Source of the DNA: Glutamicibacter ardleyensis
GTDB taxonomy: Bacteria; Actinomycetota; Actinomycetes; Actinomycetales; Micrococcaceae
NCBI RefSeq assembly: GCF_014644555.1
Contig: NZ_BMKX01000001.1
Location: forward strand, 620,001 to 684,000
DNA: 64,000 nucleotides
Direction: 5' to 3'
Notes under the pieces: model-generated
What the model saw: only the letters and a program-made list of their open reading frames with translations
Told to the model about the DNA's origin: nothing
The model's database searches: none
Position numbers and translations under genes: made by a program
Part shown: in pieces, positions 1,284 through 24,849 of the stretch
How positions within the stretch are numbered: the first letter of the stretch is position 1
Layout: each line of letters begins with the position of its first letter

Positions 1284-1298
1284 GATTCGATACGTACA
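1284..1298. promoter_or_regulatory. TetR-type operator, copy 1
   Basis: The sequence is GATTCG-ATA-CGTACA, a match to the 6-3-6 palindrome GATACG-N3-CGTATC found in eight intergenic regions of this island. It overlaps a second dyad (CGATAC, 5 bp, GTATCG at 1288-1304). It lies 22-36 bp upstream of the FAH gene start at 1262, where a repressor would block transcription. The assignment to the TetR protein at 20123-20704 is inferred. Confidence 0.6.
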
Positions 1299-1345
1299 GT
1301 ATCGCATTGTGCTTAGGGAAATGCAATGCTTCAAAAACTCATGGA

Positions 1346-2176
1346 TCAGCTGGCCCGCAGCAGCGGCCCGGTTTCGCACAATTCCGCCAGCGGCTTGCGG
1401 CCTGAGAGCATTCCCAGTCCACGGCGAATCTGCGTAAGCAGCTCCCGGCCTATGGGATCCACCGTTAATGTCCTCGCCCGCGCAGCCCATGCAGTTGCCG
1501 CGGCGGCCTGATAGCCATGACGCTCAAGCAGCGCTACGCCGGCTTGCACGTCCATCGATTCACCGGCCGCGGCACCGCGTGCCAGCGCACCCAAGTATCC
1601 GGTGAGCTCCTCGGATCCCAATAACTCAGTACGCACCACCAGACCTTGGCCCGGCAGCTGCGGCAGAAGTTCGTTCACCTCCGACACACACCTCATACCG
1701 GCTTGTTCAGCAAGCTTGTCGAATGGCGGGCCGAGCAGGCTCGCGTCGATTTCTTTAGCCAGCAGTGCTTCAAATCGTTCGCGTACCCCGCCGATCACCA
1801 CATAATCCACGTCGATTCCTGCGCCGCCCAGCAGATGCCGTGCAAGCAGGGCAAAACCGTTATCCGGGGCGTCCACGGCGAACCTGCATCCAGCCAGATC
1901 CGCCATAGTTGCCATCTCGTCACGCGCATAGATGCCCAGCGGGGTGGTCGCCTCGACTTGAGCAATGAGACGCACGTCGGCACCGGCCCGATCCCATTCG
2001 AACAAGTTGTCCATGGCGGTGATGGCCACATCGATGGTGCCGTCCAGCAGCCCGGCGAGCTGCTCCGCGCTGGAGGTGGTTCGGGTGGACTGCACCTCAA
2101 TCTTTTCCAGGAATCCCAGCTCGTCCGCCAGCAGATAGGGTACCGGCGGTACGAAGTGGCTTTGGCGCAGTATCAC
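1346..2176 (-). CDS. substrate-binding-protein-like (NMT1/THI5-type) protein without signal peptide
   Basis: The 276-residue product looks like a type-2 periplasmic binding protein of the NMT1/THI5 class: an N-terminal lobe with SFVPPVPYLLADELG-like spacing, a GTIDVAITAMDN segment, and a second lobe rich in Ala and Gly. It starts directly with MILRQSHFV and has no hydrophobic signal sequence or lipobox. Its ATG overlaps the TGA of the FAH gene upstream (ATGA), so the start cannot be moved far. No permease or ATPase gene is adjacent. It may act in the cytoplasm, as a sensor or an enzyme of the same fold. Function is uncertain. Confidence 0.7.
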   Translation of the reverse strand: MILRQSHFVPPVPYLLADELGFLEKIEVQSTRTTSSAEQLAGLLDGTIDVAITAMDNLFEWDRAGADVRLIAQVEATTPLGIYARDEMATMADLAGCRFAVDAPDNGFALLARHLLGGAGIDVDYVVIGGVRERFEALLAKEIDASLLGPPFDKLAEQAGMRCVSEVNELLPQLPGQGLVVRTELLGSEELTGYLGALARGAAAGESMDVQAGVALLERHGYQAAAATAWAARARTLTVDPIGRELLTQIRRGLGMLSGRKPLAELCETGPLLRAS

Positions 2177-3204
2177 GAGGCGGCCCCACCGGCTGCGGCA
2201 ACCGCGACCGGACGGTCTGCGTACCAGGGAGGCAGCTGCCCGGAAGGGCCGCGGACCGTCGAGCGCTGGGTGCCGAGACTGGTGATCTCCGCTTCCATCA
2301 CATCTCCATCGCGCAGGAATCGGCCCCAGTGCGATCCGTTGCCCGCAGGCGAACCGGTGATCAGCACATCCCCGGGCTGCAGTACTGCAACCGAGGATGC
2401 GTAGGCGATCAGGCTCGGGATGTCGAAGAGCAGGTCATCGGCCAGGGCATCTTGCATCAGCGTGCCATTGAGGCTCAACTGGATTCGCAGCTTTGCCGGG
2501 TCCGGCACATACCGCTTCGGCACCACATAGGGACCAGTGGGGAAGAATGTCGGCTGGTTCTTCGACCGGAACCAGTCGGTACCCATCATCGCGATGTCGG
2601 TGCGCGGCACGAGAGCGCGCGAGGTGACATCGTTGACGATGGTGTACCCGGCGACGTAATCCATGGCATCTGCTGCCGCAACCCGGTGTGCCTTGCGCCC
2701 AATGACCACCCCTAGCTCCAGCTCCCAGTCGACGTTACTGCCGACATCGGGCAACTGCACATCGTCATAGGCGCCGCAGACAGCGGAGGGTATCCCGGTC
2801 CAGACATATGGATCACCCGTACGGCCGCGTTCATCGATTTCGGCCGCGGCGTCGGCCGCCAATTGATTCTCGTCGGCACCTTCTTTCCCCAGCTTGTGGG
2901 CAACGCTCATCTGGATGACGTGCTCACGGTAGTTCGCCCCGGCGGCGATGATGGTGCCCACCGGCTGCACCGGTGGGTGCACCTTCAGGGTCTTGAGCGC
3001 ACGGCCGCCGGCGGCGGCCGGGTCAAGCTGCTCGAGCGCATCCAGGTGGGAATCCCACTGGGCGAAAAGATCCCCGATCCGGGTGATGCCCGGCAGCACG
3101 CTGCGCAGGTCCACGACCCGGTCCCCAAAGACGGCCCCGGGAAATTGCTCCGTGCCATCTTCGAAGGTGCCCAGCTTAAATCCGCTGATGCGAGTTTCCC
3201 TCAT
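2173..3204 (-). CDS. fumarylacetoacetate hydrolase (FAH) family protein 2
   Basis: The 343-residue product is a second FAH-family enzyme, only distantly similar to the one at 246-1262. The expected metal ligands are Glu161 and Glu163 in VDWELELGVVIG and Asp192 in the VNDVTSRAL segment. I chose the ATG at 3204 because GGAGGA lies just upstream; an in-frame ATG at 3222 has no ribosome site. It sits between the ring-cleavage dioxygenase gene and the binding-protein-like gene. A role in hydrolysing the meta-cleavage product, or in the following tautomerase/decarboxylase step, is the simplest inference. Confidence 0.88.
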   Translation of the reverse strand: MRETRISGFKLGTFEDGTEQFPGAVFGDRVVDLRSVLPGITRIGDLFAQWDSHLDALEQLDPAAAGGRALKTLKVHPPVQPVGTIIAAGANYREHVIQMSVAHKLGKEGADENQLAADAAAEIDERGRTGDPYVWTGIPSAVCGAYDDVQLPDVGSNVDWELELGVVIGRKAHRVAAADAMDYVAGYTIVNDVTSRALVPRTDIAMMGTDWFRSKNQPTFFPTGPYVVPKRYVPDPAKLRIQLSLNGTLMQDALADDLLFDIPSLIAYASSVAVLQPGDVLITGSPAGNGSHWGRFLRDGDVMEAEITSLGTQRSTVRGPSGQLPPWYADRPVAVAAAGGAAS

Positions 3205-3233
3205 GAGTCCTCCATGTTCCATGATGTTCTTGC

Positions 3234-4172
3234 CTATACCGGTGGCGGGACGAAAAGACCCTTGTCCTTGTCGTTGAACATTTCCTTGGCAATGAATTCA
3301 TCCATGTCCCCGCCGGTGCCCCACTGGTCCGAGGTCATCGGATCAGAAGTGTCGTAAATGCTCGGGTGCCAGGTGTCCTCATCGATCGAATCAAGTTCGG
3401 TGGTGAATTCCATGGTGTTGCCGTTGGGATCATGGAAGTAGGTGAAGGTGTTGTCCCCGGCGCTGTGCCGTCCCGGACCCCAGATCTTCTTGAATCCCGA
3501 ACGCAGCAGCTTGCCGCTGCCGCGCATGTACTCGTCGATCCCGCGCAGTTCGAAGGATGCGTGCTGCAGCGAGGCGTGCGGGCCGCGGGCAATGGCAATG
3601 GAGTGGTGCTGCGAGTTGCATCGCAAGAAGTAGAACAGATCCCCCATGTGCGGGTGGTTCAGGGTGTCCGAGAGCCGGAAGCCCAGGTGCTGCTCATACC
3701 AAGCGAGCATCTTCTCCGGTTCCGGGGAGTTGAGCACCACATGGGACAGGCGAACCGGGATGGCTTCGCGTTCCTCGATCTTGCGGTGCTTGCGCACCTC
3801 GACATCCGAGGAGACCTCGATGGTCCGTCCTTCCAGGTCGAAGAAGCGGAATCCATACCCGCCCCCAAGCGTTTTGAGGTCATCTGGTTCGCCGATGAGC
3901 TTGACCCCTTTGGCAATGAGGTCAGAGGCAAGCTGGTCCACCGCGGCATTGTCCGCAGCGCCGAACGCGACCATGTCAAGGCGCTTTTCTTCGGCCTCGC
4001 GCACACGGACCGAGTACTGTTCCGGCGAGCCCTCGGCGGCAAAGTACGTGACTCCGCCGTCGTCCTGCATCTCGGTCAATCCCCAGTGGTTCTTGTAGAA
4101 GTCAACCTGTTTTTTGTAATCTGGCACCGCGATATCGAAGTGGCGCAGGTGTGTGATTGGGCTGAAGGCCAT
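3234..4172 (-). CDS. extradiol ring-cleavage dioxygenase (VOC family)
   Basis: The 312-residue product has the two-domain vicinal-oxygen-chelate fold of type I extradiol dioxygenases, which open catechols next to the two hydroxyls using Fe(II) or Mn(II). Metal ligands fit His144 (LSHVVLN), His204 (LQHASFEL) and Glu255 (GNTMEFTTE). The N-terminal VOC repeat covers about residues 6-125 and the catalytic repeat about 139-260. It lies 59 bp downstream of the flavin hydroxylase gene and 29 bp upstream of the FAH gene, giving the classic order hydroxylase, ring cleavage, hydrolase. The exact catechol substrate is not evident. Confidence 0.9.
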   Translation of the reverse strand: MAFSPITHLRHFDIAVPDYKKQVDFYKNHWGLTEMQDDGGVTYFAAEGSPEQYSVRVREAEEKRLDMVAFGAADNAAVDQLASDLIAKGVKLIGEPDDLKTLGGGYGFRFFDLEGRTIEVSSDVEVRKHRKIEEREAIPVRLSHVVLNSPEPEKMLAWYEQHLGFRLSDTLNHPHMGDLFYFLRCNSQHHSIAIARGPHASLQHASFELRGIDEYMRGSGKLLRSGFKKIWGPGRHSAGDNTFTYFHDPNGNTMEFTTELDSIDEDTWHPSIYDTSDPMTSDQWGTGGDMDEFIAKEMFNDKDKGLFVPPPV

Positions 4173-4191
4173 GATGTGCTCCTGTAATTCT

Positions 4192-4207
4192 TTCCGCCTG
4201 GGCGGAA
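4192..4207. repeat. short perfect inverted repeat in the hydroxylase-dioxygenase gap
   Basis: TTCCGCC and GGCGGAA are separated by two bases. The hairpin lies in the 59-bp gap between two co-directional genes. It could modulate mRNA stability or partial termination. It loosely resembles the IclR-type CTTCC-N7-GGAAG sites elsewhere, but the spacing differs. Confidence 0.35.
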
Positions 4208-4231
4208 GGTGTGTCTTGAGAATTTTTTGGG

Positions 4232-5737
4232 CTAGAGGTTCGCCGGCACGTCGTGGCCGACCTCCGGGATGCTGGCAGCGATGCGTTCGAGTGCTTCGGG
4301 GGTATCCCCGAGGCCCAGGATGTAGCGGTCCGGACGGACCACCACGACCTTGGCGCCGGCGGCCTCAAGAATCCGGCCGACCTTGGCAGAATCGAACAAG
4401 ACGACAACAAAATCGTTGTCCTCGAGCTGGCTGCGCAGCACAGCCGGCACGGCGGAGTAGATCTCCGGGGTTGTTGCCACCAGGAAGCGGGAACCGACCA
4501 TGTCATCCAGGCGCACCCCGTCGGCGAGGATCGGCTGCGTGGCCAGATGTCCGGCGCGGCTGTCGATTTCCCCCTCGTGCAGGCCCGGTCCCAGCGGGGG
4601 TGCGACGGGTGCCGAAGCCGCGGGATTTGCGCGGATGAAGGCATCGCGCTGCTTGGCGACCTCGGCATCGGTGGTCTGCAGGAAGCCCGCGGCATTGGCA
4701 GCCTGCTCCACCCAGAACCGTGCGTGCGGCAAGCGTTCTGACTCGTAGGTATCAAGCAGGCTGTCATCGGCAGCGCCGCGCTTGACCGCGTCCAGCTTCC
4801 AGACCAGATTGGCGACGTCCCGCATTCCGGCGCACAGGCCCTGCCCGAAGAGCGGCGGAGCCTGGTGGGCGGCATCGCCGGCCAGGAAAATGTTGCCGGC
4901 ACGCCACCGCTGGGAAATGCGTCCGCGGAATGTGTAGGTCGCCAGCCGGTCTGCGGTGAATTTGCCTGCCGGCAGCACGCCGCGGCTGAGGCGCTCAAGG
5001 CCCGCCGGGGTAGTAATTTCCTCGGGGTCGTCCCCCGGCATGAGCATGAACTCCATGCGCACACGTTTGCCGGGGAGCCGTATCCACAGAGCAGGGCGGG
5101 TATGGTGGCCCAAGAAGATCATGTCCGAGGATAATCCGGGGCTGTCTTCAAGGATCCCATCGGCGACCAGCCACTGCGCATCCTCGCCGATTTTTTCGGT
5201 TTCGATGTTCAGCGCTTTGCGGCTCTGCGAGCGGGCTCCATCAGCTGCGATAGCCCAACGGGCCCGGATCAAGGATTCTTCGCCATCCGCGTTCTGCACC
5301 GCAACTTCGACGCCTTCGCCAACATTGCGCACTGAAAGCACCGTCATGCCGCGGCGCAGCTCAACGCCTGGCAGTTCCTCCACGACCTCATGCAACAGGC
5401 ATTCAATCTCAGGCTGGTGGAAGGTCAGATCGTCGTGCCATCCCTGCGCCCCGAGCTGGCCGGTTGGCACGGAAATCAGGACTTCGCCCGCCTCGTTCTC
5501 GATATGCATCGAGGCCATCGGCAATGTGGCCTTGGCGAAGCGTTCTGCCACTCCCAAGGATTGAAGAGTGCGGAAGATTTCTCCATCAAAGTGCACGGCG
5601 CGTGCGGTCGGCCACGCCTGGATCTCGCGCTCTACTCCGACGGCACTCAGGCCGGCGCGGCCCAGCAGGGCCAGAGCAGTAACGCCCACCGGTCCACCGC
5701 CAACCACCACCACGTCAACTTCAACGATCTTTGCCAT
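4232..5737 (-). CDS. FAD-dependent aromatic hydroxylase (MhpA/PheA-like)
   Basis: The 501-residue product is a class A flavoprotein monooxygenase, which hydroxylates phenolic rings with NAD(P)H and oxygen. It shows the dinucleotide motif GGGPVG at residues 13-18, the DG motif at Asp166-Gly167 (AIAADGARS) and the second FAD motif GDAAHQAPPLFGQG at 287-300. The closest known types are 3-(3-hydroxyphenyl)propionate hydroxylase (MhpA) and pentachlorophenol-type monooxygenases. It is first in the operon leading to the ring-cleavage dioxygenase, so it probably makes the catechol substrate. An operator lies 23 bp upstream of its start. Confidence 0.9.
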   Translation of the reverse strand: MAKIVEVDVVVVGGGPVGVTALALLGRAGLSAVGVEREIQAWPTARAVHFDGEIFRTLQSLGVAERFAKATLPMASMHIENEAGEVLISVPTGQLGAQGWHDDLTFHQPEIECLLHEVVEELPGVELRRGMTVLSVRNVGEGVEVAVQNADGEESLIRARWAIAADGARSQSRKALNIETEKIGEDAQWLVADGILEDSPGLSSDMIFLGHHTRPALWIRLPGKRVRMEFMLMPGDDPEEITTPAGLERLSRGVLPAGKFTADRLATYTFRGRISQRWRAGNIFLAGDAAHQAPPLFGQGLCAGMRDVANLVWKLDAVKRGAADDSLLDTYESERLPHARFWVEQAANAAGFLQTTDAEVAKQRDAFIRANPAASAPVAPPLGPGLHEGEIDSRAGHLATQPILADGVRLDDMVGSRFLVATTPEIYSAVPAVLRSQLEDNDFVVVLFDSAKVGRILEAAGAKVVVVRPDRYILGLGDTPEALERIAASIPEVGHDVPANL

Positions 5738-5759
5738 CCCGCTCCTTCAAGTTCAGTAC

Positions 5760-5774
5760 GTATCGTTTCGAATA
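5760..5774. promoter_or_regulatory. TetR-type operator, copy 2
   Basis: GTATCG-TTT-CGAATA matches the shared palindrome imperfectly; CGTATCG extends it on the left. It lies 23 bp upstream of the hydroxylase ATG, within the expected promoter of the hydroxylase-dioxygenase-FAH operon. Confidence 0.5.
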
Positions 5775-5839: not shown

Positions 5840-7216
5840 CTAGGCCTTCCATACCGTTTTGAGGTTGCAGAATTCGCGAATTCCTTCGGCGGCGAGCTCG
5901 CGGCCAAAGCCCGAGCGCTTAATGCCACCGAATGGCAGCTCTTGATTTGAGACCGTCATCCCGTTGATGAACACCGCTCCGGCCTCGAGCCGCTCCAGGA
6001 ACCACTGCTCTTCGGCGGCATCATTGGTCCACAGGGCGCTGGAGAGGCCAAAGGCGGTCTGGTTGGCAACCTGCAGCGCCTCTTCCCGATCCCGGACCCG
6101 GTATAGCGAGGCCACCGGACCAAAGGCTTCCTCCTGGACCAGCCGCATTTCGTCATTCAGCCCGGCAATTACCGTAGGCAGGTAGAAATATCCTTCACCC
6201 TGCGGGGCGGAGCCCCCGACAAGCACCTGTGCACCCAAGGCCACCGCATCATCCACGAGACCTGCCAATTCATCGCGTCCATCGGCGGTGGCCAGTGGCC
6301 CAACCTGCGTCGCCGGATCCATTGGGTCACCCACCACGAGCTCGCCCATCAGCCGGGCAAATTCGGCAGCAAATTCGTCATAAATATCGGTATGCACAAT
6401 AAAACGCTTCCCTGCGATGCAGGATTGGCCGTTATTGCTAATCCGCGCCCTCACTGCAGTAGCCGCCGCAGCAGGAACGTTGGCTGAATCCATGACAACA
6501 AACGGATCCGAGCCACCCAGCTCGAGCAAAGACTTCTTCACATGATCCGCAGCAATCGAAGCCACCGAACGCCCTGCAGGTTCGGAACCGGTCAAGGTCA
6601 CGGCCTTAACCCGCGGATCCGCGATTACCGGGGCAACCGCGCCGCCACCGATGAGCAGTGTGCGGAATGAGCCCGCAGGGAATCCCCCTCGTTCAAAGAG
6701 AGTATCCAGGTAGATTGCCGACTGCGGCACATTCGAGGCGTGCTTGAGCAGACCGGTATTGCCCGCCATCAGCGCAGGAGCCGCGAAGCGGATGACCTGC
6801 CAAATGGGGTAGTTCCACGGCATCACCGCAAGCACGGCGCCTAATGGTTGATAAGTGGTCCACGCCTTTGAAGCGCCAACAACCGACGGGTCTTCCAAAG
6901 GAGTATCTGCCAAGAACTTTTCGGCATTCTCGGCATAAAAATGCATGGACGCCGCGGACTTGCGCACTTCGGCTACCGATTGCGCGATGGGCTTGCCCAT
7001 CTCCAGGGTGATCAGCCTTCCCAGCTCTTCGGCTTCAGCTTCCAGGAGCTGGGCGGTTGCTTTCATCCATTCGGCCCGCTGCGCGTAGCTGGTTCCACGC
7101 AGGATCTTCACTGCTTCGTCGGCATGGGCGATGCGGCGCTCCACCTCTTCGGTGGAGTGGGCCTCAAAGACTTGTTCGGTGACGCCGGTGGTTGGATTCA
7201 CTGTGGAGATTGCCAT
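5840..7216 (-). CDS. NAD(P)-dependent semialdehyde dehydrogenase (succinate-semialdehyde type)
   Basis: The 458-residue product is an aldehyde dehydrogenase of the short succinate-semialdehyde dehydrogenase subgroup. The catalytic residues are present: Asn135 (PWNYPIW), Glu232 (ELGGSDPF) and Cys266 (NNGQSCIAG). It is transcribed away from the ornithine-cyclodeaminase-like gene, and a perfect operator lies between them. In this island it likely oxidises a C4 or C5 semialdehyde released by ring cleavage and hydrolysis. Succinate semialdehyde is a candidate, not a proven substrate. Confidence 0.9.
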   Translation of the reverse strand: MAISTVNPTTGVTEQVFEAHSTEEVERRIAHADEAVKILRGTSYAQRAEWMKATAQLLEAEAEELGRLITLEMGKPIAQSVAEVRKSAASMHFYAENAEKFLADTPLEDPSVVGASKAWTTYQPLGAVLAVMPWNYPIWQVIRFAAPALMAGNTGLLKHASNVPQSAIYLDTLFERGGFPAGSFRTLLIGGGAVAPVIADPRVKAVTLTGSEPAGRSVASIAADHVKKSLLELGGSDPFVVMDSANVPAAAATAVRARISNNGQSCIAGKRFIVHTDIYDEFAAEFARLMGELVVGDPMDPATQVGPLATADGRDELAGLVDDAVALGAQVLVGGSAPQGEGYFYLPTVIAGLNDEMRLVQEEAFGPVASLYRVRDREEALQVANQTAFGLSSALWTNDAAEEQWFLERLEAGAVFINGMTVSNQELPFGGIKRSGFGRELAAEGIREFCNLKTVWKA

Positions 7217-7283
7217 GGTTTTCAGTTCCTTTGCTGGGGTACGTTTTCGTCATTTTCGAAAACCTGTTGCTCCGAGTATATGA

Positions 7284-7298
7284 GATACGATTCGTATC
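7284..7298. promoter_or_regulatory. TetR-type operator, copy 3 (perfect palindrome)
   Basis: GATACG-ATT-CGTATC has perfectly matching 6-bp arms and defines the consensus. It lies in the 171-bp divergent promoter region between the semialdehyde dehydrogenase (minus) and the ornithine-cyclodeaminase-like gene (plus), so it could control both. A further GTATC half-site follows at 7305-7309. Confidence 0.7.
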
Positions 7299-7387
7299 GG
7301 ATAGTATCTATCCTAACGCCATGTGATGTGGTGCACACGATTGAGCATGCTTCGTCGTGTTCCAGACTTTCAAAGGAGTGAACGCCC

Positions 7388-8401
7388 GTGAGTGCAGAAG
7401 GAAATCTGCCGCAGGACCTTCCGCTGTTTCTGACCGACGCTGATGTCGCTCACCTCTCGGATTGGCCCATTGCTATTGAGGCAATTCGCGAGGCCTACCG
7501 CACCGACAATGACGAGCTGCGAACCCCGGGACGAATTTTTGCGCAGTCCCCGCAAGAGTGGTTGCGCATCATGCCTTCGGCCCCTGCCAGCGGCAAGGTT
7601 TTTGGCGCTAAGTCCATCGCCGGATCTTTCACCGGTGGGCTCACCGTCAGCTACCTGATCTCCTTGTTCGATAAGAACACCGCAGATTTGGTGGCACTGA
7701 TAGACGGCAACCGGGTAACCGGTTTGCGCACCGCCTCAACCACCGCTGTTGGAGTTTCCACTATCGTGCCGCAGCGCGCATTGCGCGTAGGCATTATCGG
7801 CTCGGGATTCGAGGCCCGCTCCCACCTCACCGCCTTCTCCCACCTGATGAAGTTCGCAGATATCCGCGTGTTCAGCCCCACTGTGGCTAACCGCGAAGCT
7901 TTCGCGAAGGAATTCGACGGTGTTTTTGACGCTCCGGCACACGCTGTCAGTTCGGCTCGCGAGGCTGTCGAGAGCGCGGACCTGATCCTCTGCGCCGCAC
8001 GCTCGCGCGATGAATCGCCCACAGTGCAGGCCGACTGGGTGGGCGCCAACGCTTCGGTTGTCTCCATCGGTTCTACTACCCCGGCCCAACGTGAACTACC
8101 CGTCGAACTAATTGGCCGGGCAAGCACCATCGTGGTGGACACCTATGAAGAAGTAGTCCATGACAGCGGCGACATGATCGCCGCGCGCGCCGCCGGCATC
8201 GATGTCGACGCCGTAGTACTGCCATTGCAAGCTGCGCTGAGTGCTGAGAGCCAGATCGACACCGAGGAGGGGATCAGGATTTACAAGTCCACGGGTTCTG
8301 GCCTGCAGGACATCGTTGTCGCTGAGATGCTGCTGAACCGAGCACGCACTGAGGGTGTAGGCACGGTCCTGCCCGTCGGCATCGTTACCAGCCGTAAATA
8401 A
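7388..8401 (+). CDS. ornithine cyclodeaminase / mu-crystallin family protein
   Basis: The 337-residue product belongs to the ornithine cyclodeaminase family, whose members include amino-acid cyclodeaminases, ketimine reductases and SbnB-type dehydrogenases. It has the NAD-binding loop GIIGSGFEA and the family segment TGLRTASTTAVG. The start is a GTG preceded by AAAGGAG. It is followed after 40 bp by the DapA-like aldolase gene, and the two form an operon under operator copy 3. The substrate is unknown; reduction of an imine or keto intermediate is possible. Confidence 0.85.
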   Translation: MSAEGNLPQDLPLFLTDADVAHLSDWPIAIEAIREAYRTDNDELRTPGRIFAQSPQEWLRIMPSAPASGKVFGAKSIAGSFTGGLTVSYLISLFDKNTADLVALIDGNRVTGLRTASTTAVGVSTIVPQRALRVGIIGSGFEARSHLTAFSHLMKFADIRVFSPTVANREAFAKEFDGVFDAPAHAVSSAREAVESADLILCAARSRDESPTVQADWVGANASVVSIGSTTPAQRELPVELIGRASTIVVDTYEEVVHDSGDMIAARAAGIDVDAVVLPLQAALSAESQIDTEEGIRIYKSTGSGLQDIVVAEMLLNRARTEGVGTVLPVGIVTSRK

Positions 8402-8441
8402 CTGACTTTTAACACACCAACCCAAAAATAAGGAGTACCTC

Positions 8442-9461
8442 ATGGTGGATTACACCAAGTCCGAAGCTCGTTCCTGGGCTCGAGAGAATTTCACCGGCAC
8501 CGTCGCGGTGACCCACCCGTCTTTCACACCAGATTTTTCTGCAATCAATGAAAACGCAATTCGCCATGACATCCTGCTGCTCAAGGAACGCGGTTATGCC
8601 GGTTCGCTGATTGTGGCCGAAGCGAATGTGACTCCGGAAGAAAACGCGCGGATCACCGCGATTGCCCGCGAAGCGGCCGGTCCGGACTTCGCGTTGTTCT
8701 TCCACGCAATCTTCGGCACCTTGGAAGAGAATATCCACGCCGCAAATCTGGCCGAAGCCGCGGGCGCAGACCGCACGCTGCTTGCGTACCCAGCATCCTT
8801 CTGGCCAACAAATTATGATCAGGTGTTCGACTACACCAAGAAGTTCACCGATGAAACGAACATGGCAGCCATGCTCTTCCCGCTGCCAGCGTGGGGATTT
8901 GAACGCATCCACCCGGCCGGCATGAGCGTTGAGTTTGTACGCCGCGTACTGGACGCGATGCCAAGCATCGTGGCGATCAAGGCAGAACAAGGTTACCCAG
9001 GCATTCCTGGCGTCATGGAGATGTACCACCACTTCCGAGATGAGGTCGTCATCTCCTGCCCCATCGAGTCTGAACTCATCCCTCTGATGTCCGTCCTGGA
9101 CGTGCAGTTCTCCGGTACTGCGAATACCAACTGGATGGGTGACTACTACCCGCGCGCGTTCGAGCTGGCCCGTACCGGCAAGTGGGAAGACGCCATGGAA
9201 CTGTACTGGAAGGTCCAGCCAGCTCGCGCGGCAAACGGCGCAGTCTCCGCGACCTCCACCCCGGGTACCAATATGATCAACCGCACCCAGTGGAAGTACC
9301 AGGAATGGCTCTCGGGCTTCAATGGCGGTGCACTGCGCCCACCTGCAGCCAAGCTTCCTGACCGCTTCATGAAGCAGCTACGCGCAAGCCTGGAAGCTTC
9401 TGGCCTTCCGGTCACCGACTCACCTGATGAAGAGTTCATGCGCGGACGCGTCTCCGCCTAA
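8442..9461 (+). CDS. dihydrodipicolinate synthase (DapA) family aldolase-like protein
   Basis: The 339-residue product is a class I aldolase-type TIM barrel of the DHDPS/N-acetylneuraminate lyase family. The Schiff-base lysine is Lys180 (IVAIKAEQG). The position of the catalytic Tyr found in DHDPS enzymes reads LFPLP rather than LYNxP, so Phe146 appears to replace it. The length and the C-terminal GGALRPP segment recall hydratase-aldolases of aromatic pathways (NahE/PhdJ type) more than lysine-pathway DapA. GGAG precedes the ATG. It is the last gene of the operon and is followed by a terminator. Confidence 0.82.
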   Translation: MVDYTKSEARSWARENFTGTVAVTHPSFTPDFSAINENAIRHDILLLKERGYAGSLIVAEANVTPEENARITAIAREAAGPDFALFFHAIFGTLEENIHAANLAEAAGADRTLLAYPASFWPTNYDQVFDYTKKFTDETNMAAMLFPLPAWGFERIHPAGMSVEFVRRVLDAMPSIVAIKAEQGYPGIPGVMEMYHHFRDEVVISCPIESELIPLMSVLDVQFSGTANTNWMGDYYPRAFELARTGKWEDAMELYWKVQPARAANGAVSATSTPGTNMINRTQWKYQEWLSGFNGGALRPPAAKLPDRFMKQLRASLEASGLPVTDSPDEEFMRGRVSA

Positions 9462-9719: not shown

Positions 9720-11081
9720 TCAATCCTCCACACTTTGCAATGACGTTTTTCTTTTCGGCTCTGGTTTGGCAGCGTTCGAACCATCAAAGGTTTCTTCCGC
9801 TGCTTGGAAGTGCCTGGACTGCTGACGCAATCCGGCCAACGCGCCAAGCAGGACCCCGATAGGCAGTAACAGCACCAAAAAGATTCCGGACAAGCCCATG
9901 CCGGTGGCGATCAGTGTTCCTCCAACTACCCCGCCTGTCGCGGAGCCGAGTCGGCCACCGAATTCAGTGACTCCCATGCCCAAGCCACGCGCGCTCTCCG
10001 GGAAGCTCATGGCCGCAAGAACTCCACGAGTTGGCCCAAAAGCACTGGGCAAAATAAATCCGGTAATCCCCAAAATGACTAGCAATGAACCAAAACTTGG
10101 TTCACGCGCCATAGAAACCACCAGTGCCATGACCGCGGCCAGGCACAAGGCACCACCAATCACCGTGAATCGGGAGCCACGTGCCAGGAGCAACCCCAGC
10201 ACGATGCTTCCCAGCACGCTGGTGAACCCGTAGAGGCCCACAATGGTGCTGCTTTGCACCGTGTCCAAGCCAGGAACGGGCAACTGCAGTAGCGTAGGCA
10301 GATACTGCGCAATGAGCAGCTGAGTGCCCAACGAGAAGAAGCCAAAGATCCACAGCAGCAAAGTGGTGGTCACAAACTTCTTCCCCAGCACCGTGCGAAC
10401 CGAGACCCGATCTTTTGCCGGAACTTTCACCGGCATAGTCCCAGCCAGCTTCGCCGCACGGCGCGCCGGTGACTCGGGTACTACGAAGGCCAGTACAAGG
10501 ATAATCACCAGGGGAATCACGCCGCCAACTATCAGCAGCGCCCGCCATCCTACGGTGGGCAGCAGCAAGCCTGCGAGGGTGGCTCCCACGGTGGTTCCCA
10601 GTCCAACACCGGCATAGGCCGCTGCGAGCAGGCCGGCCCGACTACGTGCCGGAACCAGGTCCGCCAGCAAGGTGTTGCCGGAGGCCATCGCGGCACCCAT
10701 TCCTACACAGCCAAGAAGGCGCCAGATGACAAATTGCGTAAAATCTGCGGACGTACCTCCCAGCGCGGTGGCGGAGCCGAAAATAACGACACTGAGGATG
10801 AGAATAGTCTTGCGCCCCCACCTCACTGATAAGGCTCCGGAAATAATGGCGCCCAACCCCATCGCGAGGAATCCCACGGCAACGACGAAGGCGATGCCGC
10901 CGCCCACCGAAACTCCCCACTCTTTGATGAGCGTAGGGAAAACGTGGCTGACTATCGTCACGTCCATGCCGTCAGTCAACAGCACCAGCGTAATCATCGT
11001 GAAGTAGAGCCAGTGGCGTCCGGTCAGACGTTCACGGGGTGCATGCGCAGCAGGCACAACATTTTCAGTGTCGTGATTCAT
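9720..11081 (-). CDS. MFS transporter, aromatic acid:H+ symporter (AAHS) type
   Basis: The 453-residue product has about twelve membrane segments. Its first helix carries DGMDVTIVSHVFP, the acidic signature of the AAHS family of benzoate and hydroxybenzoate importers, and the cytoplasmic loop carries the motif-A-like SVRWGRKT. It begins 12 bp after the binding-protein gene and is probably co-transcribed with it. It is likely a second uptake route for the aromatic growth substrate of the island. Confidence 0.88.
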   Translation of the reverse strand: MNHDTENVVPAAHAPRERLTGRHWLYFTMITLVLLTDGMDVTIVSHVFPTLIKEWGVSVGGGIAFVVAVGFLAMGLGAIISGALSVRWGRKTILILSVVIFGSATALGGTSADFTQFVIWRLLGCVGMGAAMASGNTLLADLVPARSRAGLLAAAYAGVGLGTTVGATLAGLLLPTVGWRALLIVGGVIPLVIILVLAFVVPESPARRAAKLAGTMPVKVPAKDRVSVRTVLGKKFVTTTLLLWIFGFFSLGTQLLIAQYLPTLLQLPVPGLDTVQSSTIVGLYGFTSVLGSIVLGLLLARGSRFTVIGGALCLAAVMALVVSMAREPSFGSLLVILGITGFILPSAFGPTRGVLAAMSFPESARGLGMGVTEFGGRLGSATGGVVGGTLIATGMGLSGIFLVLLLPIGVLLGALAGLRQQSRHFQAAEETFDGSNAAKPEPKRKTSLQSVED

Positions 11082-11093
11082 GGCTGGTTCGCT

Positions 11094-12387: not shown

Positions 12388-12412
12388 GTATCGCATAAGA
12401 CTAGACACATGC

Positions 12413-12427: not shown

Positions 12428-12476
12428 GTTTCGAATGTAGCGGGCATCACAAATTTTCACAAAAAGGGGACAACCA

Positions 12477-14944: not shown

Positions 14945-15960
14945 GCGAGAGCACCACCATCAGAAAGCAAACGGCCTCGGCAGAACGACGCCTCGGCCCG
15001 AAGATCAAGCGGATACTTGTTGAGCTGCCAGTATTGCAAGCCTTGGTCTTGCTCGTCTTGGCGGCTTGGCTATTGATCAGCATTCCCTCCATCTTCAACC
15101 CACGTTCGGTGACCTCGTTGCTGTTGATCGCATCCTTGCTGGCACTAGCGGCGATGGGCCAAACATTGGTCGTCATTCTTGGTGGATTGGATCTTGCAAC
15201 GCCTGGCTACATACTCTTTGGCGCCTTCATGGCAGCCAATGCCACGGGCAAACTGGGCCTGTCGCCAATGCTGGCAATACTGCTCACCATCCTCGTGTGT
15301 GGCGGCATCGGCGCCCTGATTGGCAGGATCTGCCATCGTTTTGCCGTCCAACCACTGGTAGTCACTCTGGGCACCGGCGCAGCTCTAACCGGCGCCACGC
15401 TGTTCTTGGCGGATGGCGATTATTCCTCGGTACCCCATGATTCGCTGCGTTCCCTGGCCAGCCTTCGCGCAACGACCTTCGGGCTTCCGTTCCCACCAAT
15501 CATTCTGATCGTGTTGCTGCTCGGTGTGGCCCTGTGGGTCTTCTTGAACCGCACCACCGCAGGACGCCGGCTTTATGCGACGGGAGTTAACTTCAGAGCC
15601 GCGGGACTGACAAGAATACGAACCTCAATCGTCTGGGTTCTGGTCTTTGCCGCTTCCGGTGCCTTCGCTGGCCTTGCCGGGGTATTCATTGCCGCCTATG
15701 GTTCGGGCTGGTCACAGACCATCGGCGATCCCTACCTGTTTTCCGGACTAGCGGCGGTGCTGGTTGGTGGAACGATCTTCGGCTCAATCCACGGCAGTTA
15801 TACCCGCACGCTGCTGGGCGCACTGATTCTCACCTTGCTTTCGACGATCATTGTGAGCAATGGATTATCCGAGGCGCAAAGCCGCATCGTGTTCGGCGTT
15901 ATCATCCTCGCCGTGGTTTCGCTCTATGGACGCGAACGGCACGTACGCAACAGGTTCTAA
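14941..15960 (+). CDS. ABC transporter permease 2 (RbsC type)
   Basis: The 339-residue product is a second ribose-type permease with the related motif GGLDLATPGYILFG. It is the last gene of the ATPase-permease-permease operon and is followed by a strong terminator. Two different permeases with one double ATPase are typical of importers for furanoses, autoinducer-2 or rarer sugars. Its place in an aromatic regulon suggests a glycosylated or sugar-like aromatic, which is speculation. Confidence 0.92.
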   Translation: MSESTTIRKQTASAERRLGPKIKRILVELPVLQALVLLVLAAWLLISIPSIFNPRSVTSLLLIASLLALAAMGQTLVVILGGLDLATPGYILFGAFMAANATGKLGLSPMLAILLTILVCGGIGALIGRICHRFAVQPLVVTLGTGAALTGATLFLADGDYSSVPHDSLRSLASLRATTFGLPFPPIILIVLLLGVALWVFLNRTTAGRRLYATGVNFRAAGLTRIRTSIVWVLVFAASGAFAGLAGVFIAAYGSGWSQTIGDPYLFSGLAAVLVGGTIFGSIHGSYTRTLLGALILTLLSTIIVSNGLSEAQSRIVFGVIILAVVSLYGRERHVRNRF

Positions 15961-16531: not shown

Positions 16532-16688
16532 TGTCAACGTCGGCCCCTTGCCCCTCCTGCGAATTGAGGCCATTACCCCAAGTCGGCGATTCGTTGGCCC
16601 ATTTTCTGCCAGCTGAGCGGAAGTCTTCAGCAGGTCATAGTCTGAAAAATTCTCGAAAATGATATGCACCAGGTCACAAACGCGATAC

Positions 16689-16703
16689 GATACGAAACGA
16701 GTC
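16689..16703. promoter_or_regulatory. TetR-type operator, copy 6
   Basis: GATACG-AAA-CGAGTC lies 55-69 bp upstream of the flavin oxidoreductase start at 16758. An additional GATAC half-site precedes it at 16684-16688, the same arrangement as at copy 7. Confidence 0.55.
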
Positions 16704-16757
16704 GAATTCAATTACTGATGAGCTTTCCGAACGTTTGCAGTCTTTTCAAGGAGAAAA

Positions 16758-18086
16758 ATGTCTACCGAGACCAGCACCGTGTCCGCCTCCAAGGTTCTTT
16801 CCAGCTCCTGGAAAATCGACGGGCTGACGATCAAGAACCGCTTTGTGCTCAGCCCGATGGCAGTGCTTCAGCCAACCAAGGACGGAAGTCCCAGCGAACA
16901 GACCATCGCTTTCCTCACCACCCGCGCCAAGGGCGGCGCGGGTCTGCTGATCGTTGGCGGCACCGTGGCCACCGAAAGCGGATATGCGGAGGCACCCTTC
17001 CAGCCACTCATGCGTTTTGATAATGACCGGTTCATTCCAGGACTCAAGAAGATGGTAGACGCGGTCCACGCGTACGGCGTTCCTCTCTTCGCGCAGATCT
17101 TCCCGGCCTTCGGCGCCATGGGAGTACCGGGAGAGGGACGCACCACCCGCGCCGCCAGTCCGAAGCCGGTGCGCATGGCAGCACCACGCTTACCCCATGG
17201 AATGTACATCCCCGGCGGACGGACCAATCCAACGCCTGAAGAAATCACCAGGGAAGAGCTGCGCGAGGTCCAGAACGAGACCGTCGCCGCGGTACTGCGC
17301 GCCAAGGCAGCGGGGTTCGACGGGATCGAGATCGGTGCCCATATGCGCTACCTCTACTCATCCTTTTTCTCCCCACGCACCAACTGGCGCAGCGATGAGT
17401 ACGGTGGCAGCGCGGAGAACCGCGCCCGCTTCCTAGCGGACACCATTAGAGCGATACGTGCCGAAGTCGGCCCCGACTACCCGGTGGGCGTACGCATGAG
17501 CGTGAACGACCATCTGCCCGACGGCCAGGGTCCGGAAGGCTTTGCCGAGGTCATGACCTATGTCGTCAAGGAAGGTGTCGGGTACATCGCGCTGACCGAT
17601 GCGAATTACGAGTCGATGGACGACAATCTCCCGTCCTCTTCCGGACAGATGCTGGCGCACAGCGAGCCGCAGATCTTCCGCAAGTATTTGCCGAATGTTC
17701 CGCTCTTGCTCAGCAACACCTACGAACCGCAGCAGGCTGCGCAAGCAATCGAGGACGGCTATGCCGACGGAATTATGCTCGCCCGCCAGCTGCTGGCCGA
17801 CCCTGAATTCCCCAATAAGGTACTCCAAGGCCAACAGGAAAAGATCAACTGGTGCGACCATGACAATTCATGCTTGCGTCGATTGATTCTCAACGTCCCG
17901 GTTCGTTGCCACCTGAACCCTGCCATGGGTCGTGAAGCGGCACTGGCCGGTGCCGAAGAATCCTTGGCTACCAAGCTGAAGCGTCCGGTAGATGCCTTTG
18001 TCATTGCCGCAGCAGGGTCGCCGTCGCTGATGGGCCTTGCCGACAAGCTGGCCAACGCCAAGATGGCCAAGGACGCCAAGAAGTAG
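16758..18086 (+). CDS. Old Yellow Enzyme family NADH:flavin oxidoreductase
   Basis: The 442-residue product is an FMN-binding TIM barrel of the OYE family, with LTIKNRFVLSPM at the start of the barrel and RTNWRSDEYGGSAENRARF near the middle. It lacks the C-terminal dinucleotide-binding half of the 2,4-dienoyl-CoA reductase type. The active-site segment usually HGAHGYLL reads IGAHMRYLYSSFFSP. The ribosome site is AAGGAG. It probably reduces an alpha,beta-unsaturated carbonyl of the pathway. It forms a single-gene unit under operator copy 6. Confidence 0.88.
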   Translation: MSTETSTVSASKVLSSSWKIDGLTIKNRFVLSPMAVLQPTKDGSPSEQTIAFLTTRAKGGAGLLIVGGTVATESGYAEAPFQPLMRFDNDRFIPGLKKMVDAVHAYGVPLFAQIFPAFGAMGVPGEGRTTRAASPKPVRMAAPRLPHGMYIPGGRTNPTPEEITREELREVQNETVAAVLRAKAAGFDGIEIGAHMRYLYSSFFSPRTNWRSDEYGGSAENRARFLADTIRAIRAEVGPDYPVGVRMSVNDHLPDGQGPEGFAEVMTYVVKEGVGYIALTDANYESMDDNLPSSSGQMLAHSEPQIFRKYLPNVPLLLSNTYEPQQAAQAIEDGYADGIMLARQLLADPEFPNKVLQGQQEKINWCDHDNSCLRRLILNVPVRCHLNPAMGREAALAGAEESLATKLKRPVDAFVIAAAGSPSLMGLADKLANAKMAKDAKK

Positions 18087-18214: not shown

Positions 18215-18640
18215 TTACATGGTCGGTTCGGTCCCCGTGCGCAATGCTCGTCCACTGCCCCGATAAACCGCCACGGTTCGCTTTCCGGCACGCACCAGGA
18301 CGTCGACAATCATTCGCCGCCCTTCATGGAAAGTCACTTCGGCCTGCGCCACCAGCTCTTCGCCAATATGGGCCGGGCTGAGATAAGAGATATCGGCCTC
18401 GGCCGTGGCAATGCCCGCGCCGAAGGTGTTCGCAGCCATGGCAAATGCGGTATCCGCCACGGCAAAAACGTAGCCACCGTGGGCAATGCCGTGTCCGTTG
18501 GCCATATCGGCTTCCACCTGCAAAACCGCGGTGGCGCGCCCTTCGCTGGCGCTCAACACGCGGATCCCCAGCCGTTCCAGACTCTTGTCTGCGGCAAGCA
18601 TCGAGTGTGCCGGTTCGGCAATCTGGGCTTGTTGACTCAT
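18215..18640 (-). CDS. paaI: hotdog-fold acyl-CoA thioesterase (PaaI type)
   Basis: The 141-residue product is a PaaI-type thioesterase. It contains the family signature NGHGIAHGGYVFAVADTAFA, which includes the catalytic-loop HGG segment. The ATG at 18640 overlaps the TGA of the thiolase gene (ATGA), which fixes the start and shows coupling. PaaI enzymes hydrolyse stalled phenylacetyl-CoA-type thioesters and recycle CoA. Here it may rescue dead-end CoA esters near the thiolase step. Confidence 0.87.
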   Translation of the reverse strand: MSQQAQIAEPAHSMLAADKSLERLGIRVLSASEGRATAVLQVEADMANGHGIAHGGYVFAVADTAFAMAANTFGAGIATAEADISYLSPAHIGEELVAQAEVTFHEGRRMIVDVLVRAGKRTVAVYRGSGRALRTGTEPTM

Positions 18641-19857
18641 GATAAACGCTCCACAACCATCGCCATCCCCTGGCCGCCACCCACGCAAAGCGTCGCCAAA
18701 CCGAGAGCTCCATCCTTGGCTTGCAATCCATTAACCAGAGTGCCCACAAGCCTGGTACCTGTGGCACCAAATGGGTGACCCAGAGCAATGGCACCGCCAA
18801 AGGGGTTGACCTTCTCCGGGTCGGCACCCAATTCCCGCACCGTAGGAACTACCTGTGCGGCGAATGCTTCATTGAGTTCCACAATGTCAATGTCATTGAT
18901 TCCCAAGCCCAGTCGCTGCAGCAGGAGCCGGGACGACTCCACAGGTCCTAGACCCATAATTTCAGGGGACAGTCCGCTGGCTGCGCTGCCCAGAATACGT
19001 GCCAGCGGAGTCAATCCCAGTTCATCCGCGCGTTGTGCGCTCATCACGACTAACGCGGAGGCTCCGTCGTTCAACGGGCTTGCATTGCCGGCGGTCACTG
19101 TGCCGGATTCATGGAATACCGGCTTGAGTCCGGATAGCGTTTCCAAGCTGGTGCTCGGCCGCGGCCCGTCATCATCTTTCACCAGCATGCCCGCAGCGGT
19201 GGTGAACGGCGTGATTTCCCGTGCGAAGTACCCGTCCTTAACTGCTTGGGAAGCGCGTAGTTGAGAGGTCAGCGCCCATTCATCTTGGTCCGCTCTTGTC
19301 GTACCGGTTTTCCGGGCAACAAATTCTGCGGTCTTGCCCATGGAGATGTAAATATCAGGCAGTTGGCCTGCGGTTCGAGGGTCGCTCCACTGCGCACCGG
19401 ATTCAAAGAGCTCGTCAGCACGGTGGGCGGATTGCGCGAACCCGGGGTATGGAGAGTCGGTGATCGGTGGAGTGCTGCTCGTTGACTCAACGCCTCCGAC
19501 CACGAACACCTCTCCGTCCCCTGCACGGATCGCTTGGGCTGCCATAGCGGTAGCTTGCAACGAGGATGCGCAAAATCGATTCACCGTCGCCGCGGGTACA
19601 TTATCCAGTCCGGCGAGCACCATAATTCGGCGGCCCACATTGTCCCCTTGCGCGCCCTGCGGCATGGCGCAGCCGAAGTAGGAGTCGGCGATATGCTCGC
19701 CCTGAAGCTGCGGGAGCTTGGCCATAGCACCGCGCACTGCGGCTAACCCAAGATCTTCCGGCCGTTCCCCCGCAAGGGAACCCTTGCGTGCACGACCGAT
19801 AGGCGTCCTGCTATAGGCGACTATCACCGCATCATTCGCTGCAATGGCTGTACTCAC
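18637..19857 (-). CDS. thiolase (acetyl-CoA C-acyltransferase)
   Basis: The 406-residue product is a degradative thiolase. It has the nucleophile Cys96 (VNRFCASSLQA), the GHPFGATG motif and the C-terminal CVGGGQGM motif with the second catalytic Cys. I prefer the GTG at 19857, 9 bp after AAAGGA, over an in-frame ATG at 19875 without a ribosome site. It is coupled to the thioesterase gene. It would split a 3-oxoacyl-CoA, for example a beta-ketoadipyl-CoA-like or side-chain-derived intermediate, into acetyl-CoA and a shorter acyl-CoA. Confidence 0.9.
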   Translation of the reverse strand: MSTAIAANDAVIVAYSRTPIGRARKGSLAGERPEDLGLAAVRGAMAKLPQLQGEHIADSYFGCAMPQGAQGDNVGRRIMVLAGLDNVPAATVNRFCASSLQATAMAAQAIRAGDGEVFVVGGVESTSSTPPITDSPYPGFAQSAHRADELFESGAQWSDPRTAGQLPDIYISMGKTAEFVARKTGTTRADQDEWALTSQLRASQAVKDGYFAREITPFTTAAGMLVKDDDGPRPSTSLETLSGLKPVFHESGTVTAGNASPLNDGASALVVMSAQRADELGLTPLARILGSAASGLSPEIMGLGPVESSRLLLQRLGLGINDIDIVELNEAFAAQVVPTVRELGADPEKVNPFGGAIALGHPFGATGTRLVGTLVNGLQAKDGALGLATLCVGGGQGMAMVVERLS

Positions 19858-19995
19858 GTTGACGATTCCTTTCATGGCGGCAGCGTGCCTGGTTCAGCTC
19901 CGCAGACCGCGTGAAATGTTTTGATTGGCATGAAAATAGCTCAGGCCTGCGCCATAGAGTAGAAAAAGTTCCATCAATGCGCTCTGAAATAAATA

Positions 19996-20010
19996 TATAC
20001 GAACCGTATC
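19996..20010. promoter_or_regulatory. TetR-type operator, copy 7
   Basis: TATACG-AAC-CGTATC matches the consensus at 11 of 12 arm positions. A further CGTATC-like half-site follows at 20011-20015. It lies 139 bp upstream of the thiolase start. Confidence 0.6.
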
Positions 20011-20064
20011 GTATCCTACAAGGACAATGATCGTTTATGGCTAATGTGAACTTCTTTTCTCATG

Positions 20065-20704: not shown

Positions 20705-20731
20705 GGCACAACCATACGCGTTTTCGCATTC

Positions 20732-20746
20732 AATACGAAACGTACA
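20732..20746. promoter_or_regulatory. TetR-type operator, copy 8 (autoregulatory)
   Basis: AATACG-AAA-CGTACA lies 28-42 bp upstream of the TetR start codon. A regulator gene carrying the same palindrome as its presumed targets is the strongest reason to link this protein to the sites. Confidence 0.6.
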
Positions 20747-20830
20747 CAATCACTCTGGCGCTTCCAAGATTTTGAGCTTCCGTCGGCTTCCACAAGGAAG
20801 AACCCAAACCAAACATCAGCGATAATCCGA

Positions 20831-23708: not shown

Positions 23709-23822
23709 GGTTGGCTCCTAGCTTGGGCCTGGGTTCGTTGTTTCACTAAGTGTCACATCGGACTAACCAACAGTAAACTGCGAATATTAGCGATACTTCT
23801 TCGATTAGTTAGGAAATAGCCG

Positions 23823-24737
23823 TTGGCTAAATTCACCCTGCGCCAATTGGAATTATTTGCCCAGCTGCCTAAGCACCAGACTTTGAGCTCCGCTGCGCAG
23901 TCCCTGCACATGTCAGATTCTGCGCTGTCTCACGCGATCACCGAACTGGAAACGGCCGTAGGTGAGCAGCTTTGCGTGCGGCGCAAGGCGCGCGGCATGT
24001 ACCTCACCCCCGCCGGAACGCATTTCGCCTCGCGGGCCAGCGAAATTTTGCGTGCCACTGATTCCTTGGCTGGAGAGCTCTCCGAAGTCAGCGGTGAATT
24101 GCGCGGCCCGGTCTCACTGGGCTGTTATACGGGATTAGCCAGCAACGTCCTGCCAGCGGTACTGGAAGGGATTGCAAGACTGCACCCTGAAGTGGAAATC
24201 CGCATCACCGTAGGAGACCACTCCGACCTTCTGCCCGCCTTGGCGGACGGTTCGCTCGATGTTGCGGTCGTTTACGATATCGGGTTGCCGGCAACTTTGC
24301 AGCGCAGTGTTGTTTATGAAACTGAAGTGATGGCGGTGCTTGCGCAGTCCGATCCACTGGCTAGTGCGCAGTCTATCGATCTGTCCGATTTGGCAGCCAA
24401 GCCGTTGATCATGCTCGATACCGCCCCAAGCTCTGATTACACGCAATTGATGTTCTCCCAGCGCGAGCTGACCCCGATATTCGGCGCCATCGTTCCGCAG
24501 ATCGACCTCGTGCGTGCATTGGTCGGACGCGGCCTTGGCTACAGCCTGCTGATGTCACGTCCCAACCAGATCCCGGTGTCCAGCGAGGGGCTGGGCCTGG
24601 TGACGCGCCACCTAAATCCGCGCAGCGGAGTGACCTCGGTGGTTGCCGTCTGGCCGACGGGATTTACACCCAGCGCTCGTGCCCGAGCCGTCATCGATTA
24701 TGCCATCGAGGCGTTGGAGGCCAGCGAACCAAGCTGA
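23823..24737 (+). CDS. LysR-family transcriptional regulator
   Basis: The 304-residue product has the N-terminal LysR winged helix (FTLRQLELFAQL, SAAQSLHMSDSALSHAI) and a LysR ligand-binding domain. The start is TTG at 23823, 8 bp after TAGGAA. It is divergent from the P450 operon with a 114-bp gap, the usual arrangement for a LysR regulator and its target. The T-N11-A box could not be fixed with confidence. The inducer is unknown. Confidence 0.9.
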   Translation: MAKFTLRQLELFAQLPKHQTLSSAAQSLHMSDSALSHAITELETAVGEQLCVRRKARGMYLTPAGTHFASRASEILRATDSLAGELSEVSGELRGPVSLGCYTGLASNVLPAVLEGIARLHPEVEIRITVGDHSDLLPALADGSLDVAVVYDIGLPATLQRSVVYETEVMAVLAQSDPLASAQSIDLSDLAAKPLIMLDTAPSSDYTQLMFSQRELTPIFGAIVPQIDLVRALVGRGLGYSLLMSRPNQIPVSSEGLGLVTRHLNPRSGVTSVVAVWPTGFTPSARARAVIDYAIEALEASEPS

Positions 24738-24834
24738 CTATCCCCGTTCAACTCAAAGACAAATTTTCCTCAAAGCGCGCTGAGTCCAGGGCCCACTCAT
24801 TGCTTTATCTTGTGACCCGAATTACAATCGAAAC

Positions 24835-24849
24835 GATACGAATCGAACT
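24835..24849. promoter_or_regulatory. TetR-type operator, copy 9
   Basis: GATACG-AAT-CGAACT has a perfect left arm and a weak right arm; CGAAAC precedes it. It lies 54-68 bp upstream of the AraC-family gene start at 24903, which would place that activator under the same TetR repressor. Confidence 0.5.

Follow-up and report, generated by a model that had tools for sequence, protein, structure and literature searches.

A putative TetR-type repressor and its predicted 23-bp operator in an aromatic catabolic gene cluster of Glutamicibacter ardleyensis

Gene content of the cluster

The 64,000-nucleotide stretch analysed here, from the genome of the soil actinobacterium Glutamicibacter ardleyensis (contig NZ_BMKX01000001.1, positions 620,001 to 684,000; hereafter the window) carries at 1–28 kb, based upon gene and domain assignment, a catabolic gene cluster (Table 1). 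Among its genes is one for a TetR-family regulator, and nine copies of an inverted repeat lie in its intergenic regions. We consider it very likely, from sequence comparisons, that this TetR protein is a local, autoregulated repressor which binds a 23-bp dyad at nine predicted sites. The site, its conservation, its position before the targets and its pairing with this clade of repressors are supported by the computation.

The degradative enzymes include two FAH-family hydrolases, an NMT1-like protein, an extradiol dioxygenase, an MhpA-like FAD hydroxylase and a succinate-semialdehyde-dehydrogenase-like enzyme (SSADH). Further genes specify OCD and DHDPS-family (DapA-like) proteins, an old-yellow-enzyme-type oxidoreductase (OYE), a thiolase with a PaaI-like thioesterase, and a P450 with its ferredoxin and reductase. 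Transport is represented by an aromatic-acid-type MFS protein and a sugar-type ABC importer. Besides TetR the cluster holds LysR (gene at 23823) and AraC regulators, an SDR, and a vanillyl-alcohol-oxidase-type flavoenzyme (vanillyl-alcohol/eugenol/4-allylsyringol-oxidase; hereafter the oxidase). The P450 gene (22422–23708) adjoins the LysR gene; the nearest match of its product is PDB 6g71, which we take to be an Arthrobacter P450 of papaverine metabolism, followed by the GcoA aromatic O-demethylases. The ATG starts at 12353 (solute-binding protein, SBP, with a lipoprotein signal), 20704 (TetR) and 24903 (AraC) were set by inspection.

The regulator encoded at 20123–20704 belongs to the TetR_C_11 subgroup of the TetR family. 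It possesses the Pfam motifs PF00440 (36.2 bits, cut-off 24) and PF16859 [TetR_C_11] (78 bits, cut-off 32), and its recognition helix, KTTIYRWW, is invariant in 22 aligned TetR sequences. The predicted structure (mean pLDDT 90.8) has the all-helical TetR fold, with 2fq4 as best fold match (TMq 0.81), and G. soli NHPC-3 has an identical protein. Inspection also revealed a perfect inverted repeat (20065–20117; 25-bp arms, 3-base loop) after the TetR gene and before the thiolase promoter, which is probably a terminator separating these two transcription units.

Table 1. Predicted operators and genes of the cluster (orthologue counts refer to other loci with a site)
Feature	Position	Strand	Remarks
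Operator upstream of FAH1	1285..1307		11/12 FAH1 orthologues
Operator upstream of hydroxylase operon	5751..5773		4/4 orthologues
Operator common to divergent SSADH and OCD/DapA	7280..7302		3/3 OCD and 3/4 SSADH orthologues
Operator upstream of SBP and MFS	12374..12396		weakest of the nine by foreign model
Operator upstream of ABC ATPase and permeases	12409..12431		site between/before 7/7 SBP and 7/8 ABC orthologues
Operator upstream of OYE gene	16685..16707		4/8 orthologues
Operator upstream of thiolase operon	19992..20014		7/10 thiolase homologues
Operator upstream of TetR gene	20728..20750		predicted autoregulation
Operator upstream of AraC gene	24826..24848		5/10 orthologues
FAH-family hydrolase FAH1	246..1262	-	predicted target
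Predicted operon, whole unit	1346..5737	-	predicted target
FAD hydroxylase, MhpA-like	4232-5737	-	leads predicted operon 1346..5737
Extradiol dioxygenase	3234-4172	-	in predicted operon 1346..5737
FAH2	2173-3222	-	in predicted operon 1346..5737
NMT1-like protein	1346-2176	-	in predicted operon 1346..5737
SSADH	5840..7216	-	predicted target
OCD/mu-crystallin (7388-8401) and DHDPS-family/DapA-like (8442-9461) operon	7388..9461	+	predicted target
Solute-binding lipoprotein SBP (11094-12353) and aromatic-acid-type MFS (9720-11081)	9720..12353	-	predicted targets
ABC ATPase and two permeases	12477..15960	+	predicted target
OYE	16758..18086	+	predicted target
Thiolase (18637-19875) and PaaI-like thioesterase (18215-18688)	18215..19875	-	predicted target
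TetR-family regulator, 193 aa	20123..20704	-	predicted repressor
AraC-family regulator, FeaR-like	24903..25847	+	predicted TetR target; probable second-tier activator; start by inspection
34-bp near-palindrome TGCAGTnnGTGCACAnAAGTGTGCnCGnACTGCA	27665..27698		putative different operator, between oxidase and SDR genes; found by motif learning

The predicted operator

A sequence-only reading of this DNA had described nine copies of a 15-bp palindrome, GATACG-N3-CGTATC, in eight intergenic regions. All nine exist and, given the three start codons set by inspection, they do occupy eight intergenic regions. Five of the nine coordinates were exact and four (1284, 5760, 12373 and 24835) lay 5 bp off, as the motif shows partial self-similarity at a 5-bp shift. 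In the best register the cores begin at 1289, 5755, 7284, 12378, 12413, 16689, 19996, 20732 and 24830; only that at 7284 matches GATACGN3CGTATC exactly, the eight others having 1 to 3 mismatches.

The 15-bp core is part of a longer conserved operator. When 86 sites taken from the window and from 21 further loci were aligned, a 23-bp dyad, ATnCRATACGnWnCGTATYGnAT, emerged as the conserved unit. The inner CG steps, at -3,-2 and at +2,+3, are each present in 83 of the 86 sites, and the outer ones in 40 (-8,-7) and 55 (+7,+8). Positions +/-11, which lie beyond the 21-bp selection model, are likewise conserved in this set. The sites were picked by a score above 15 bits, under a model that had itself been derived in part from them.

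Distribution of the motif in the window and genome

To learn a motif, expectation-maximisation was applied to the 120 bp upstream of TetR in 19 loci from other species (L017–L036 without L031, which shares its promoter with L030; L016, of the same species, was excluded). This foreign 21-bp model had a log-likelihood of 214 versus 63–71 in three shuffled sets; the palindromic 21-bp model reached 150. Scanned over the whole window, the palindromic model placed eight of the nine sites, all intergenic, as the eight best non-overlapping places (scores 16.2–24.3). The next ranks, 15930 (12.1) and 49476 (11.3), both fall inside open reading frames (ORFs); the ninth site (12375–12395) scored 8.6 and ranked 12. 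With the non-palindromic model the sites took ranks 1–4 and 6–9, the ninth standing at 11.

The matrix scan covered the window and a further 400 kb (about 10% of the remaining genome); the whole genome was scanned by patterns. At a palindromic-model score of at least 14 there are eight places in 1–25000, all of them sites, none in 25001–64000 and three in the 400 kb. At a score of at least 12 these numbers become nine (the eight sites and the coding match at 15930), none and 11, with 9 of the 11 in ORFs. The 40 kb to the left of the window had no place at 12 or above and three at 10 or above.

Over the whole genome the 15-mer with up to two mismatches shows a weak excess, 140 places versus 97 for a reversed control. 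For a 21-mer, designed on the window sites, up to one mismatch gives nine places, of which five lie in the 24-kb cluster, that is, in 0.6% of the genome. Up to two mismatches give 63 versus 23 for the control, with 12 of the 63 in the cluster (overlapping, at eight of the nine sites). Within these scans a wider regulon elsewhere was considered and rejected: of the four best 21-mer matches outside the cluster three are inside ORFs and one is a terminator-like hairpin, and 49476 is ORF-internal as well.

One might ask whether the dyads are simply chance or compositional palindromes. CG steps 5 bp apart do recur by chance in GC-rich coding DNA, and the excesses are modest, in the genome as given above and in the window, where GATACGN3CGTATC with up to three mismatches occurs 36 times versus 17.05 +/- 4.01 in shuffled sequence (none of 100 shuffles reached 36). 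Nevertheless, a model trained upon foreign DNA alone ranks eight of the nine sites above any coding match in the window, and the dyad is conserved across species and phyla. We regard a chance origin as hardly credible.

Genomic association of the TetR gene with the site

In the reverse test a matrix was built from the eight window sites other than that of the TetR promoter and scanned on the 170 bp before TetR homologues, the loci being the best 80 of 352 relatives with one dropped (upstream region too short). At p < 0.02 by shuffling 64 of the 79 promoters, L016 and L031 included, carry the motif. Among unique promoters all 50 shuffles were beaten by 18 of 19 in the close loci (L017–L036) and by 35 of 58 in the distant ones (L037–L095). 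The latter come mostly from Cyanobacteria and Alphaproteobacteria, with TetR homologues 33–47% identical. Controls behaved differently: in L037–L095 only 9 of 605 other genes beat all 50 shuffles, and twelve column-permuted matrices gave 0–1 close and 0–6 distant TetR promoters. A site also precedes 36 of the 209 other genes in L017–L036, as expected if these include further targets. In family genomes, the loci of four weak TetR homologues (28–31% identity) lacked a site.

Another regulator of the cluster, the AraC protein (24903) or the LysR protein (23823), might own the dyad; the AraC gene adjoins a site and frequently occurs together with the oxidase gene. Against this, the motif can be learnt from TetR promoters alone, and it is present at the TetR promoter in L030, L036 and L039, three loci whose examined DNA yielded no homologue of AraC or LysR. 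The oxidase/SDR promoter, a natural AraC target, carries a different palindrome. Furthermore, a 6-3-6 dyad suits a TetR dimer and not the usual LysR box, which is T-N11-A. Ownership by either of these proteins is in our view very improbable.

The TetR protein was found in 8 of 197 genomes of the family, the source genome included, and all eight also possess FAH1 (found in 9 of the 197) and the DapA-like gene (found in 10). The co-occurrence of TetR and cluster is significant (Fisher p 1e-12 or less, kinship not corrected). The seven other TetR-positive genomes contain 3–7 pattern matches, while at least three are found in 18 of the 189 TetR-negative ones (Mann-Whitney p = 2e-6 for the difference in matches, kinship again not corrected). 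Taken with the two reciprocal cross-species motif tests, this co-occurrence lends strong support to the link between TetR and site which the sequence-only reading had put forward tentatively.

Predicted members of the regulon

Predicted operators lie upstream of every unit that had been listed as a target, the TetR gene among them. Of the two FAH units, FAH1 is preceded by a site; FAH2 has none of its own and is situated inside the hydroxylase-led operon. To assess conservation, the interval from -300 to +30 bp around each start was searched for sites scoring 13 bits or more in 19 loci (L016 and L031 left out). Gene calls were the longest ORF, a crude procedure, and some "inside ORF" flags in other species may reflect wrong starts. 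The site is kept before TetR in 15 of 19 loci and before the MFS gene in 4 of 8 orthologues; counts for the other targets are in Table 1. Genes internal to operons had no site in these loci (PaaI 0/8, DapA 0/3, dioxygenase 0/3, FAH2 0/5, NMT1 0/4, and permeases 0/6 each).

The earlier description of a coherent pathway under one repressor was too strong, although a local regulon remains. By matrix scan of the window no site precedes the P450/ferredoxin/reductase operon, LysR, the oxidase gene or SDR. In other species a site was found before 1 of 10 oxidase and 0 of 9 SDR orthologues, the sole match at an oxidase promoter (L028) being common to FAH1; both genes are therefore indicated to lie outside the TetR regulon. 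By the window scan the P450 operon is placed outside it too; for P450, ferredoxin, reductase and LysR the other loci offered no orthologue promoter (0 of 0).

The oxidase and SDR genes are instead separated by a 34-bp near-palindrome (Table 1). Learnt on eight loci, the window included, it had a likelihood of 158 versus 63 and 66 in two shuffled sets; the 34-bp core occurs once in the window, and a 32-bp form once in the genome. The AraC protein, whose gene is next door and itself has a predicted TetR site, is its most likely owner, and the palindrome is probably the AraC operator. In such a second tier the AraC protein would act at this palindrome to activate the oxidase/SDR promoter.

Relation to known regulators

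No description of this regulon was found in the literature searched (most subscription journals lay outside its scope), and a search by motif letters returned only unrelated sequence matches among the matches listed; "undescribed", as the regulon had been called, therefore still appears apt. The nearest described analogue found, likened by domains and operator, is EdcR, the estrogen-dependent TetR repressor of estradiol catabolism in Caenibius tardaugens (PMC8700777; here and below as given in the available part of that paper). EdcR likewise combines TetR_N and TetR_C_11, and it sits in, and represses, a ring-compound degradation cluster. Its proposed 23-bp palindrome, TnnCnnTACnAnTnGTAnnGnnA, shares C(-8), TAC(-5..-3), GTA(+3..+5) and G(+8) with the operator described here. 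A CnnTAC-N5-GTAnnG skeleton is thus common to the 86-site profile and the printed EdcR palindrome, the other printed positions being different. The EdcR palindrome overlaps promoters, with a weaker copy at its own. It differs in lacking the conserved CG at +/-2,3 and in having T/A instead of A/T at +/-11; moreover, EdcR comes from an alphaproteobacterium, responds to a known class of effector and is concerned with steroid substrates.

By profile and fold the closest DNA-bound structure is that of Ms6564 from Mycobacterium smegmatis (PDB 4jl3, 4jkz), which, in the available portion of PMC4150764, is described as contacting 31 bp of DNA as a dimer of dimers. The similarity is moderate (28% in the fold alignment), and Ms6564 differs as a master regulator which scans generic sequence with little DNA distortion. 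In the same portion two-dimer TetR operators measure 22–32 bp; in that of CprB from Streptomyces coelicolor, which is 22 bp long and of the same length class as the 23-bp site here, the two dimers sit on opposite faces. CprB is a gamma-butyrolactone receptor and so differs in ligand class, and for the protein considered here the stoichiometry is a prediction. The nearest relatives with solved structures are 2fq4 (Bacillus cereus) and 2zb9 (SCO0332), whose titles give no operator or function.

A likeness to the lumichrome pathway, suggested by the presence of P450 and FAH genes, was dropped: the operon of that pathway, with amidases, xanthine oxidase and Rieske enzymes, is in the part of PMC12746152 available unlike the cluster. 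The available parts of two papers on phenol oxidases (PMC12909556, PMC11148156) contain nothing on the regulation of the cluster.

Proposed mechanism and contrary observations

We propose that without inducer TetR binds the nine dyads and blocks its own promoter together with those of FAH1, the hydroxylase/dioxygenase operon, SSADH, OCD/DapA, both arms of the ABC importer, OYE, thiolase/thioesterase and AraC. Release would presumably be brought about by an aromatic of the pathway, its CoA derivative or a ring-cleavage product. On visual inspection a TTCGTA hexamer falls within the TetR operator, separated by 17 bp from a TATGGT that immediately precedes the ATG; Arthrobacter locus L017 shows this 17-bp spacing too. 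The operator of the thiolase unit is flanked by TTGTAG and TATATT (18 bp apart, or 16 if TATATA is taken). An operator placed over apparent promoter elements suggests repression by blocking of RNA polymerase.

A minority of TetR-family proteins activate, and the sequence is compatible with this homologue being an activator or dual regulator. We think this unlikely: on inspection the operator covers apparent core-promoter elements as well as the regulator's own promoter, and a repressor role is reported for EdcR, the closest described member that was found (PMC8700777). We therefore favor repression over activation by the TetR protein. In its length and in the 5-bp stagger of its CG steps the operator resembles those of TetR proteins which bind as two dimers. 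The 23-bp dyad thus fits the dimer-of-dimers length class by analogy, which suggests a predicted stoichiometry of two dimers; these would probably be staggered.

Several observations weigh against autoregulated TetR repression at all nine sites. A generic sigma-70 scan of 1–20000 found no promoter at the sites, so the overlap with promoters is a matter of inspection. By the foreign model the site at 12378 scores weakly (rank 12); its counterparts, strong in both cases, are seen in two other loci only (L017, 8317; L019, 17883). The non-palindromic model puts the coding match at 49476 in fifth place, above five of the nine sites. Some targets are not kept everywhere (OYE 4/8, AraC 5/10). Of the TetR promoters, 23 of the 58 distant and 1 of the 19 close ones failed to beat all shuffles, and the promoter counts are not independent, since many distant promoters are interrelated and the loci were selected as the best 80 among 352 relatives. 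One family genome (G021) has DapA, FAH1 and a site near the DapA gene where OCD should start, but it lacks both a close TetR and a site near FAH1; as its assembly is in about 100 contigs, loss and gap are indistinguishable. Two others, G112 with seven pattern matches (up to one mismatch) and G011 with four, have no TetR homologue at E <= 1e-8.

Conservation of the operator among relatives

We lean, with some reserve, towards a broader interpretation: a clade of TetR_C_11 repressors with KTTIYRWW may have kept the operator code CRATACGnWnCGTATYG over Actinobacteria, Cyanobacteria and Alphaproteobacteria while their regulons were rewired, with a two-tier TetR-AraC cascade in G. ardleyensis. The rewired regulons would comprise an alkyl/methoxy-phenol-type aromatic cluster here, GCV_T-family genes in Pseudarthrobacter and other neighbours elsewhere. 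The apparent conservation across phyla would help to assign operators to many unstudied TetR_C_11 proteins. For the cluster itself, apparently uncharacterised and actinobacterial, the analysis offers a predicted repressor, a 23-bp operator and nine target promoters. Some of its enzymes (vanillyl-alcohol-oxidase-type, P450) are of types acting on lignin-like phenols. The repressor-operator pair might serve in an aromatic biosensor, and the pathway becomes directly testable.

The cyanobacterial homologues (L037–L060, about 40–49% identical) carry the dyad in the promoter of their own gene. By tblastn, most of these loci gave no further gene of the cluster; L039 showed an SDR-type match, and the neighbour there is a carboxymuconolactone-decarboxylase-family gene. 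In an alphaproteobacterial metagenome-assembled genome (L042:563-2300) a TetR homologue (44%), whose promoter match is weak, is directly followed by an FAH1 homologue (52%).

In Pseudarthrobacter locus L036 sites precede two GCV_T-family genes (3-1328 and 18864-20433), and the locus also has FAH1 and an AMP-ligase gene. The GCV_T family includes tetrahydrofolate-dependent O-demethylases, and it is possible that these two genes specify such enzymes.

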